Below are positions 33,431 to 36,737 of a DNA stretch of 54,903 nucleotides, piece by piece. The notes beneath the pieces are model-generated. The model did no database searches. It was not told where the DNA came from and saw only the letters and a list, made by a program, of their open reading frames with translations. This DNA comes from Oscillospiraceae bacterium (GTDB lineage Bacteria; Bacillota; Clostridia; Oscillospirales; Oscillospiraceae): contig JAFQHV010000019.1 of the NCBI GenBank assembly GCA_017397835.1, forward strand, positions 1-54,903. Direction: 5' to 3'. Position 1 is the stretch's first letter. Every line of letters starts with the position of its first letter. The position numbers were made by a program, and so were the translations under genes.

Positions 33431-33799
33431 ATGCTCCATCTGGACTATCGGGACGCCCGTCCCATCTATGAACAGGTCCGTGACGGCCTGCGGAAATTGA
33501 TGGTCACCGGGGTCATGCAGGAGGGGGAGAAGCTGCCCTCGGTGCGGGCGCTGGCGGCAACACTGGCCATCAACCCCAACACCATCCAAAAAGCTTATGA
33601 GGCGCTGGAGGCGGAAGGGTACGTCTACTCCGTGGCAGGCAAGGGCAGTTTTGTTTCGCCCCAGACCGGGGTGGATGACAGCCACCGCCGCCAGCTTCTG
33701 GAGCAGTGGCAGGCTGCCACCCGGGAACTGCTGTATCTGGGCGTTGACCCGGAGGAGCTGAACCGATTTATCGGTGAACAAGGAGGGAACAAGAAATGA
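33431..33799 (+). CDS. GntR-family regulator, YtrA subfamily
   Basis: 122 residues: winged HTH of GntR type (PIYEQVRDGLRKLMVTGVMQ; LPSVRALAATLAINPNTIQK; GYVYSVAGKGSFV) plus only a short C-terminal tail of about 45 residues. That length marks the YtrA subfamily, which usually represses its own ABC-transporter operon. Its stop overlaps the ATPase start (ATGA), and a clear inverted-repeat operator lies upstream. The inducing signal is unknown; for YtrA relatives it is often cell-wall-active compounds. Confidence 0.93.
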   Translation: MLHLDYRDARPIYEQVRDGLRKLMVTGVMQEGEKLPSVRALAATLAINPNTIQKAYEALEAEGYVYSVAGKGSFVSPQTGVDDSHRRQLLEQWQAATRELLYLGVDPEELNRFIGEQGGNKK

Positions 33800-34695
33800 T
33801 AATGATCAACGATGTGGTCAAGACCTTTGACGGCTTCCGGGCCTTGGACGGACTGACCATGCAGGTGGAAAAAGGCTCTATCTACGGTCTTGTAGGCCCA
33901 AACGGTGCAGGCAAGTCCACCATCCTGCGCCACATTACCGGCGTGTACCGCCCGGATACGGGCAGGGTACTGGTGGATGGACAGCCGGTGTACGAAAATC
34001 CGGACGTCAAGCGGCGCATTTACTCCATCCCCGACGAGCTGGCCTTTTTCCCCGCCGCCTCCACCCGGGATATGATGAAGTTCTACCGGGGAATTTATCC
34101 TAACTTCGATATGGAGCGGTACGAGGCGTTGAGAGATGCCTTCCCCGCCGTCAATGAAAAGCACCCCATCCGCCGCCTGTCCAAGGGTATGCAGAAGCAG
34201 TCCGCTTTCTGGCTGGCCCTGTGCTGCCGCCCCGACCTGCTGGTGCTGGATGAGCCGGTGGACGGCCTTGACCCGGTGATGCGGCGGCAGGTGTGGTCCC
34301 TGCTGATGAGCGACGTGGCCCAGCACGGCACCACGGTGCTGGTGTCCTCCCACAACCTGCGTGAGCTGGAGGATGTGTGCGACCACGTGGGCATCCTGTC
34401 CCACGGCAAGGTGCTGCTGCAGCGGTCGCTGACCGACCTGCAGGACAATGTAGTCAAGCTGCAGGTGGTCTTCAACGGCGATATGCCCGAGCTGCCCGCC
34501 GATCTGGAAGTGCTGCATGCCGCCGAAACCGGCCGCATCCATACCCTCATCGTCCGGGGCCGCGCAGAGGAGGTCAAGAGCCGTCTGGCCGCCTTCAACC
34601 CCCTGCTGCTGGAGGCCCTGCCCCTGTCCCTTGAGGAAATTTTCATCTACGAATTGGGAGGTGAGGACTATGAAGTCCGGGACATCGTACTTTAA
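33796..34695 (+). CDS. ABC transporter ATP-binding protein
   Basis: 299-residue ABC ATPase. Walker A GPNGAGKST at about residues 35-43, Walker B LLVLDEPVDGLDP, H-loop VSSHNLRELEDV. The signature is RLSKGMQKQ instead of LSGGQ, common in the YtrB/BcrA-like group. A regulatory C-terminal domain of about 90 residues follows. It overlaps the permease gene by 26 bases, so the two subunits are translated together. Confidence 0.96.
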   Translation: MIMINDVVKTFDGFRALDGLTMQVEKGSIYGLVGPNGAGKSTILRHITGVYRPDTGRVLVDGQPVYENPDVKRRIYSIPDELAFFPAASTRDMMKFYRGIYPNFDMERYEALRDAFPAVNEKHPIRRLSKGMQKQSAFWLALCCRPDLLVLDEPVDGLDPVMRRQVWSLLMSDVAQHGTTVLVSSHNLRELEDVCDHVGILSHGKVLLQRSLTDLQDNVVKLQVVFNGDMPELPADLEVLHAAETGRIHTLIVRGRAEEVKSRLAAFNPLLLEALPLSLEEIFIYELGGEDYEVRDIVL

Positions 34696-36697
34696 TTGGA
34701 CGCTGTTCAAGAAAAATCTCACCCGGTTCTGGCCGGTTTGGGTGCTGTATACGATCATTTGGATCTACGCCATCCCCATGAACTGCATTATGGTCGTGAC
34801 CCGCAATATGAGCTGGATGGGCACCACCCCGCTGGAGCGGGTAAAAAACTTTGCCAACGGCATCCCCGATCTGCTGACGTTCGGCGCGTTTTTGGCCTTT
34901 GTCTTCGGTGTGCTGGCGGCTATGGGGACATTCTCCTACCTTTACAACAACCGCATGGCGGGCATGATGCATACCCTGCCCCTGCGGCGGGAGGGTCTGT
35001 TCCTGACCAGCTACCTGTCCGGCCTTTCCATGCTGATCATTCCCAACTGCCTTGTCTGGGCGCTGACCCTGGCGGCGGAGGGCCTGTGCTCCGGCTTTGT
35101 GGACATGTACACCATCACCATCTGGTGGGCGGCCATGAGCGCCATGTGCCTGTTCTTCTACTCCTTTGCCGTGTTCTGCGCCCAGTTCACCGGCCACCTG
35201 CTGGCCCTGCCCGCATTTTACGGCATTTTGAACTTCCTGGTCGTCGTGCTGACCGCCCTTATAAATATGCTGTTTGAGCAGTATTTGTACGGCTACAGCG
35301 ACATTCCCGCCAATTTGGAGCAGGCCGTGTTCTGGTTTACCCCGGTGGTGCGGCTGATCAACGAGGTGAACTGGATCAACCCCAACGGCTTCGGCTGGCG
35401 GCTGCTGGGCGTGGCGGAACTGGTGATCTACGCCGTGGTGGGCCTTGTTTTTGCCGGGCTTGCCCTGCTGGTCTACCGCCGCCGCCATATTGAGAGTGCC
35501 GGCGACGTGGTGGCCGTGCCGGTAGTGCGGCCCATCTTCAAGTACGGCGTGGGCATCTGCGCCGGATTGTGCATCGGCTTCTGGGTCTATGCCATCTTCG
35601 GTTACGAGGCCATCGGCGGACTGACCGGCAGCCTGCTGCTGTGGACCGCCGTGGGCTACTTCGCGGCGGAGATGCTGCTGAAAAAGTCCTTCCGGGTGTG
35701 GAAGGCGTGGCGCGGCTGTGTGGGGCTGCTGGTGCTGATGGGTCTGTTCGTTGTTTCGCTGCAGACCGACCTGTTCGGCTTTGGGTCCTACGTGCCTGCG
35801 GTCAACCGGGTGCAGGAGGTCTATGTGGATGCCTTTGGCAGTTACCCCTACGATTCCGGCCGGGATCTCGTCATCGAGACCGAGGATCGGACCATCATCG
35901 AAAAGACGGTGGCCCTGCATCAGGGTTTTGTGGACCAACACAAAGACCCCGATACCGGCGAAGGCCGCGACAGCGACTACATCCGCCTGCGTGTGACCTA
36001 CAAGCTGGACAACGGCACGGTCATCCGCCGGGAGTACGGCGACCACGTGTGGCTGGGCAGCGAGTTTGAGCAGGTGGCCCGGGACTTCTACTGCGACCCG
36101 GAGATCGCCAAGCTGACCTATAATTTGGACCTCATTGACCCGGAGAAGCTGGGCAACGTGGAGATCAGCAGCCTGTGGAACCCCGACACCAAGAAAAACG
36201 AGTACTACAACTTTGCGGACAGGATCCCCGTGGCCGACCGCTACGCCGCCGTGCGCAAGGTGTACGACGCGGTGCTGCTGGACTTTGAGGAGGGCAACCT
36301 CGGCAAGCGGTATCTCTTCGATTTGGAGGAGGACCGTCAGCTCAACACCTGCACCACCGACCTGCACATCTACTGGGAGGATGAAGAGACCAACAACCGC
36401 TATGCCACAAATCCCGCCTTTGTGACAGCGATGGACGAGATGACTTCCGTGGTGTACCACTACACCAAGAGCGTGGCCATCACCCTGACCCCCCAGGCGG
36501 AGCACACCATCGCCGTGCTGACCGAGCTGGGAATTTTGGATGAGGACACCACCCTGCGCCTGTACCGCGATATTGTGAAAGAGGAAAATCAGGCCAAGCT
36601 GATTTATGGCGACGTGAACCTCAATCCCAACTCCGCCATGGGCATCATCGGCGGCGCCGACGGCCCCACCGCCATCGTGGTGGGGGAACCTAAATAA
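34670..36697 (+). CDS. ABC-2-type permease with C-terminal soluble domain and GIIGGADGPT tail
   Basis: 675 residues. The first ~420 hold about ten hydrophobic helices (for example FGAFLAFVFGVLAAMGTFSY, LNFLVVVLTALINMLF, LLLWTAVGYFAAEMLL). From about 425 follows a soluble region of some 230 residues (LFGFGSYVPAVNRVQEVYVD onward), similar in layout to Clostridia permeases with a DUF6449-type domain. The last 22 residues end in NSAMGIIGGADGPTAIVVGE plus two more. That motif is the Na+-site helix of oxaloacetate decarboxylase beta subunits and has no known place in an ABC permease. The substrate is unknown. A terminator follows. Confidence 0.9.
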   Translation: MKSGTSYFNWTLFKKNLTRFWPVWVLYTIIWIYAIPMNCIMVVTRNMSWMGTTPLERVKNFANGIPDLLTFGAFLAFVFGVLAAMGTFSYLYNNRMAGMMHTLPLRREGLFLTSYLSGLSMLIIPNCLVWALTLAAEGLCSGFVDMYTITIWWAAMSAMCLFFYSFAVFCAQFTGHLLALPAFYGILNFLVVVLTALINMLFEQYLYGYSDIPANLEQAVFWFTPVVRLINEVNWINPNGFGWRLLGVAELVIYAVVGLVFAGLALLVYRRRHIESAGDVVAVPVVRPIFKYGVGICAGLCIGFWVYAIFGYEAIGGLTGSLLLWTAVGYFAAEMLLKKSFRVWKAWRGCVGLLVLMGLFVVSLQTDLFGFGSYVPAVNRVQEVYVDAFGSYPYDSGRDLVIETEDRTIIEKTVALHQGFVDQHKDPDTGEGRDSDYIRLRVTYKLDNGTVIRREYGDHVWLGSEFEQVARDFYCDPEIAKLTYNLDLIDPEKLGNVEISSLWNPDTKKNEYYNFADRIPVADRYAAVRKVYDAVLLDFEEGNLGKRYLFDLEEDRQLNTCTTDLHIYWEDEETNNRYATNPAFVTAMDEMTSVVYHYTKSVAITLTPQAEHTIAVLTELGILDEDTTLRLYRDIVKEENQAKLIYGDVNLNPNSAMGIIGGADGPTAIVVGEPK

Positions 36698-36706
36698 ATG
36701 CGTTGA

Positions 36707-36737
36707 CCCACCCCCGGAAGTCCGGGGGTGGGTTTTT
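36707..36737 (+). terminator. Terminator after the ABC operon
   Basis: CCCACCCCCGGA-AG-TCCGGGGGTGGG followed by TTTTTG: 12-bp perfect stem, ten bases past the permease stop. Confidence 0.92.

Follow-up and report, generated by a model that had tools for sequence, protein, structure and literature searches.

Why should an ABC permease end in a peptide that equals a hairpin tip of the sodium-pump decarboxylase beta subunits? The question arose in a window of 54,903 nucleotides, the whole stretch of Oscillospiraceae DNA that we analysed, where the original prediction had pointed out a GIIGGADGPT-type end on an ABC permease (Table 1). The reading frame confirms this end: it is open on the forward strand from 34670 to 36694, followed by the stop codon at 36695-36697; its translation gives the C-terminus NSAMGIIGGADGPTAIVVGEPK, and the frame closes with the tail LNPNSAMGIIGGADGPTAIVVGEPK.

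Table 1. Features of the permease locus, in positions of the window
Feature	Coordinates	Strand	Evidence
GntR-type regulator, 122 aa, first gene of likely operon	33431..33799	+	ORF; NCBIfam matches
ABC transporter ATP-binding protein, 299 aa	33796..34695	+	ORF; NCBIfam matches
ABC-2-type permease, 675 aa, host of the tail	34670..36697	+	ORF, AlphaFold, Foldseek
C-terminal tail of the permease, LNPNSAMGIIGGADGPTAIVVGEPK, mostly predicted disordered	36620..36694	+	translation; AlphaFold residues 654-675 with pLDDT <50
Module core GIIGGADGPTAI, the tip of hairpin H1 in OadB-type beta subunits	36641..36676	+	translation, sequence matches
GC-rich inverted repeat followed by TTTTT, terminator-like, just past the permease stop	36707..36732	+	by eye; not returned by the terminator scan

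The genes of the likely operon overlap by 4 bases (regulator and ATPase) and by 26 bases (ATPase and permease). NCBIfam matches of the regulator were GntR/MocR-type regulators including PmtR (64 bits), and those of the ATPase were drrA, lantibiotic-protection and PmtA ATPases, in both cases under the curated cut-offs. For the permease, a Pfam scan returned no family above its cut-off. Its AlphaFold model, built on a 20-sequence alignment (mean pLDDT 79.1), has nine membrane helices by our own count, then a folded soluble domain and finally the tail, in agreement with the earlier statement that the motif comes after a soluble domain. Since the basic N-terminus would lie inside, the nine predicted helices would place this C-terminal domain on the extracytoplasmic side. 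In a Foldseek search, the membrane part matched NosY/NosFY and PmtCD best (probability 1.00, E 1.5e-3 to 3.5e-2), and this membrane fold and the adjacent ATPase gene are features of an ABC-2-type permease. As far as the permease host is concerned, the membrane fold and the neighbouring GntR regulator and ATPase genes are those of NosY/PmtCD-sort exporters, to which the window protein adds a large C-terminal domain and the tail.

The tail itself points to a different family. Its core is identical to the corresponding stretch of OadB/MmdB/GcdB beta subunits (OAD_beta, TIGR01109), including the hairpin-tip Asp, and it would lie on the same side of the membrane; the tagged hosts, in contrast, are without the remainder of OadB. 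On the window permease, the NCBIfam OadB model TIGR01109 scored 14.9 bits (cut-off 190.6), covering residues 650-671 only, and Pfam OAD_beta gave no match at E 1; judged by these profiles, the permease does not belong to the OadB family. What it has of OadB is the GGADGPT hairpin tip with its Asp, and the helix T5 segment (YSYMAL..QPP) is absent after the motif, the permease stopping six residues past the core; nor is a second hairpin H2 with its Ser and inverted repeat to be expected, given how little of the permease the profile match covers. In its own genome (43 contigs, 96% complete), the 25-aa tail retrieved at E 10 itself, an OadB-like gene and one chance match. The OadB-like gene (G000:C41) is an OadB-type frame of 399 aa that holds the only further genuine copy in this genome, and it alone was matched by a T5 query.

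We take the Asp of GGADGPT to be Asp203 of OadB. According to the published account, Asp203 of hairpin H1 is required for Na+ binding, and hairpins H1 and H2 enter the membrane from opposite sides (PMC7274780). Given the 10H-2RH-Nout topology described in a second paper (PMC8396727) and a mean of 6.6 Lys and Arg residues after helix T5 in 27 OadB sequences, we infer that H1 enters from the outside. A transport role of the motif in the tagged hosts, already doubted in the original prediction, is improbable, because the remainder of OadB is absent from them.

The motif is by no means confined to this one gene. When the 25-aa tail was searched in 197 genomes of the order, at least 156 matched, among the matches listed; 29 loci were read, together with 33 of 34 fetched stretches that had been picked for frame lengths unlike those of OadB and that included the orthologue stretches L083, L084 and L095. 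In the order, the hosts included lipoproteins of the rhodanese and cyclophilin types, small and HTH membrane proteins, ABC permeases and an exported protein of ~690 aa. Over a genome collection of 84,980 species, the DNA pattern GGADGPTAIxxG returned 73 stretches, six of them repeat copies of genes already counted from other genomes. By reading, 17 are OadB and 28 belong to a soluble ~500-aa family and its ~350-aa relatives; a further 26 are exported or membrane hosts, and the last two are a soluble 214-aa frame (L163) and a chance match (L113). These proportions are shaped by the Gly that the pattern demands at one place, which favours a part of the tags and misses most clostridial OadB. Going by their titles, the OadB stretches lie outside Clostridia save L130, with L144 unplaced; the 55 non-OadB matches presumably all come from Clostridia or Bacillota. 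On viral contigs, only L174, L178 and L182 of 16 pattern matches were taken as real.

At the level of the class, a 23-aa tag from L136 matched at least 94 of 118 genomes, among the matches listed; 70 loci were read and 40 fetched, mainly for odd frame lengths and some places twice, and OadB-sized frames were mostly taken as OadB unfetched. An exported tag is present in at least 16 of the 118 (G000, the window's own genome, G242, G253, G259, G274, G283, G285, G287, G302, G306, G307, G311, G313, G319, G329 and G339), with the variants GGADSPT in G307 and GAADGPT in G339. Across the phylum 74 of 149 genomes matched, and the eight stretches examined comprised four exported tags (L292, L293 and the variants L295 and L297), the soluble relatives L298 and L299 and the OadB-like L294 and L296; exported tags look rarer outside the class. 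With the motif masked, 87 tagged non-OadB entries, six of them duplicates of genes already included, fell into 32 clusters, two of them soluble. After merging ten clusters of small one- to two-helix proteins into one and omitting L138, there remain at least 20 families of exported or membrane hosts, among them rhodanese, cyclophilin, HtrA, BlaR1/M56, PlsY, CDP-alcohol transferase, ABC permeases, HTH and HAAS membrane proteins and an RNase. The earlier suggestion that the motif recurs as a module on unrelated clostridial proteins is thus borne out. Copies per genome are few, one in the window's own genome and at most two exported ones seen, and the hosts vary by lineage.

The module consensus spans 16-17 residues, S-[IV]-G-I-I-G-G-A-D-G-P-T-A-I-x-V-[GST], and its placement is variable: after the lipoprotein cysteine, in outer loops, ahead of the last helix, at mature N-termini and at C-termini. 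The description as a mobile C-terminal tag therefore stands for its mobility only, since many copies are N-terminal after the lipobox cysteine, in loops or ahead of the last helix, and even the permease L083 continues for 19 residues past GIIGGADGPTAI, compared to six in the window permease. C-terminal copies elsewhere are L047, a distant permease homologue in another family of the order that ends in the motif, and L088. Short exported proteins ending in the motif, which the original prediction had brought up, were not among the loci read, and the one candidate for a stand-alone secreted peptide, L138 (L330), was rejected as an exported frame of ~600 aa with the motif near its mature N-terminus. 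Among the other hosts, L115:6901-7491 is a lipoprotein that combines the tag with a ribonuclease domain (PF00545, 3e-21). L065, L071 and L087, from one family of the order, form a large exported family with the motif near the C-terminus; L297, from elsewhere in the phylum, has by eye a similar N-terminus and a variant motif.

Conservation acts on the peptide. In 22 tagged proteins outside the 500-aa family, an identical 12-mer is encoded by 22 different DNA sequences, and the identity at third codon positions is 0.345, where even codon use would give 0.29. As third positions are nearly random, it is the peptide that is kept and not the DNA; and with so many encodings of one peptide in many unrelated proteins, the motif is not a product of chance. 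Of 49 tagged proteins, again from outside the 500-aa family, 48 or 49 agree in each column from the I ahead of GG up to the T of GPT, and 37 to 42 in the outlying G, I, A and I, figures inflated by the fact that most of the proteins were found via the motif. Across 11 aligned small proteins with one or two helices, the sole unchanging stretch is the motif. In proteins of ~90 aa with two helices (L136, L155, L169, L222, L224, L292 and others), nothing but the motif in their outer loop is constant.

Charge counts by flanking helices put the motif outside in 25 of 26 membrane hosts, with L292 as the exception (2 versus 3); these hosts were chosen, several of them are homologous, and they include neither the permeases L001 and L047 nor the M56 proteins L105 and L131. 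In 20 lipoproteins it begins 2-4 residues past the cysteine (19 scored by script, L187 by eye), and the script found other spacings in L035, L081, L088, L115 and L231. At the level of predicted topology, the motif is shown to sit on the extracytoplasmic side, often beside a membrane or lipid anchor; in L065, L135 and L167 it is distant from any predicted helix.

Does a larger part of OadB travel with the motif? As a control, the neighbouring conserved OadB segment AIAIAAYSYMALIPMIQPPLMK (helix T5) was searched in the same 118 class genomes and matched 93 of them. The frames listed were of 364-581 aa or of 228-294 aa; those of the short ones that were read (L228, L230, L234 and L237) are cut OadB, the short frame G301:C79 being left unread. 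In this sample, only the hairpin tip travels; the T5 segment is confined to OadB-type frames. Taking the result of the T5 query as OadB status, OadB is present in 15 of 16 tagged and 78 of 102 untagged genomes; this difference is not significant (Fisher p 0.10), and we claim no dependence of the tag on OadB.

Among orthologues, the tag comes and goes. A permease query matched 40 of 60 genomes, the window's own included. In a 20-sequence permease tree, the tail is present in the window protein, in SIG489 (L110, 74% identity) and in G024 (L083, 64%), and absent from G032 (L084, 60%) of the same closest group and from 16 more distant members, i.e. it is found in three of the four closest permeases and in none of the 16 others. 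The expectation that close orthologues would keep the tail thus held for two of the three closest relatives and failed for the third and beyond. Fetched orthologues outside the tree had no motif at their printed C-termini; seven listed matches were unfetched. For the rhodanese lipoproteins, a domain query without the motif matched 39 of 291 genomes, the scope here being the class, as the order of G311 holds only 6 genomes. Six of the 30 loci returned have the motif, L304 has a decayed form and 23 have none. With four earlier sequences added, our script scored 9 of 34 as tagged, missing the variant IISGADGPT of L070; on the corresponding tree, with L070 scored as untagged, four changes are required, compared to 8.0 in shuffles. 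Tagged and untagged rhodanese orthologues differ by the stretch directly past the lipobox. The tag is dispensable: it is missing from most permease orthologues, absent or decayed in many rhodanese proteins and intact in only two of four orthologues of the 500-aa family. In both hosts that were modelled, the permease and the 500-aa family, it falls within disordered stretches (pLDDT <50).

The 500-aa family deserves separate consideration. It comprises L166:2217-3722 and 22 aligned relatives (FCTPKG...), soluble proteins with the motif in a disordered loop, and occurs also in Desulfosporosinus and Desulfocucumis records. Its members, the related ~350-aa proteins and L036 have the same motif and, by eye, no export signal. 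In the model of the family (mean pLDDT 83.5), confidence drops below 50 only at residues 164-170 and 437-465, counting stretches of at least three, and the second of these stretches holds the invariant motif. A motif-free query in 98 genomes of the order found four near-full-length members and two short ones; of the former, two have the motif, L276 has a degenerate form and L279 none. The member L042 had no Pfam family above cut-off, and Foldseek found no PDB match at E 0.001 (best 0.018).

Based on these results, our best explanation, with a probability of about 0.48, is that the tail is a copy of a linear tag that is read in trans by an envelope component, for docking, retention or processing. 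The module would then be a linear tag of 16-17 residues whose core equals the H1 hairpin tip of the sodium-pump decarboxylase beta subunit; an envelope component would recognise it in trans and thereby dock, retain or process the tagged protein; and the window permease, via its outer domain, would be held near, or handled by, the recognising component. More generally, we tentatively propose that Clostridia have a hitherto undescribed envelope system in which a single reader serves a 16-residue address tag in unrelated outer-face proteins, with gain and loss lineage by lineage. The soluble 500-aa family does not fit and weighs most heavily against a reader confined to the envelope. As judged by eye, neither a reader nor a common neighbour gene emerged from 14 + 10 loci of small membrane hosts and nine loci of the 500-aa family, and the search for a common operon partner was abandoned.

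The likeness to OadB could also be taken more literally. The module may be an autonomous re-entrant hairpin like H1, dipping into the outer leaflet, perhaps in a Na+-dependent manner via its Asp, and needing no reader. Its core is that of the H1 tip, whose Asp203 is required for Na+ binding (PMC7274780), it would lie on the same membrane side (6.6 Lys and Arg after T5; PMC8396727), and it often stands beside a helix or lipid anchor. However, only the tip is common to both: the tags do not keep the outer residues of OadB (E-A-A before, L-A-P after), most tagged lipoproteins allow 2-4 residues for one arm, and the motif occurs also in soluble proteins and far from predicted helices in the three hosts named above, so that we consider a hairpin unlikely. 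We give even less credence to a module that is cut or modified outside the cell, releasing a peptide signal or shedding a domain. This would suit the position between lipid anchor and domain in lipoproteins, the copies near the mature N-termini of L138 and L243 and the CTERM-like succession of motif, helix and basic tail at the C-termini of L239 and L295, but cleavage is hard to explain where two-helix proteins carry the motif in an outer loop, or at the extreme end of the permease, no cognate protease was found, and the sole stand-alone-peptide candidate, L138, is a longer protein.

Losses and decayed copies exist, as would be expected of a functionless relic or drifting piece of oadB, left by fragments, fusions or recombination, and third positions of the tags are closer to oadB of their own genome than to foreign oadB (0.471 versus 0.389; 27 pairs, permutation p 0.004), a difference that genome codon bias could explain. 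With third positions nearly random and the peptide nearly invariant, with confinement to one membrane side, and with the neighbouring conserved oadB segment staying behind, such a relic is improbable. Most improbable of all is a short DNA or RNA element, such as a palindromic repeat, inserted in frame. Insertions in linkers, loops and ends are the traces that such elements leave, but 22 identical peptides from 22 DNA sequences, with a third-position identity of 0.345, argue against a current element, though less so against an ancient one, and the nearly random third positions led us to disfavour a mobile DNA element; moreover, tblastn of short queries gave no match in phage or plasmid collections.

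A further close parallel is offered by the CTERM sorting tags, which likewise are short signatures on many unrelated exported proteins. GlyGly-CTERM is reported to pair with rhombosortase (PMC3237569), and MYXO-CTERM, with its tripartite layout, with myxosortase (PMC11980579). Compared to the C-terminal tags described there, our module is free in position, has few copies per genome and no known cognate enzyme, and in the window permease, which ends six residues past GIIGGADGPTAI, neither a helix nor a basic tail follows the motif. No sorting protease was common to the neighbourhoods read by eye; if a CTERM-like enzyme were found, the module would be better grouped with the CTERM tags. At the ends of L239 and L295, exported proteins of ~260 aa, a variant motif is followed by a single helix and then a basic tail, in a CTERM-like arrangement.

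A literature search on the core peptide strings and more widely found no paper, although few subscription papers were covered, leaving absence from print unproven. We know of no tag that is position-free, present on exported and soluble proteins and identical to the ion-site tip of a pump. That about 20 unrelated exported families carry a near-invariant 12-mer on one membrane side argues strongly for a common function, so far overlooked, in this large group of anaerobes. A reader, should there be one, would represent a new route for handling proteins in the clostridial envelope, with the tag as a means of finding its substrates; an autonomous hairpin would amount to a portable fragment of a sodium site. 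In either case, the recurring module explains why motif-driven profile matches could mislead annotation to 'decarboxylase subunit beta'. L136, for example, has sub-threshold NCBIfam matches of this name. The HAAS-domain membrane protein L178, from a viral contig, alone among the scanned tagged proteins passes an OadB-family cut-off, with a short segment (residues 91-142) scoring 36.2 bits against 31.6 for Pfam OAD_beta, an annotation trap.
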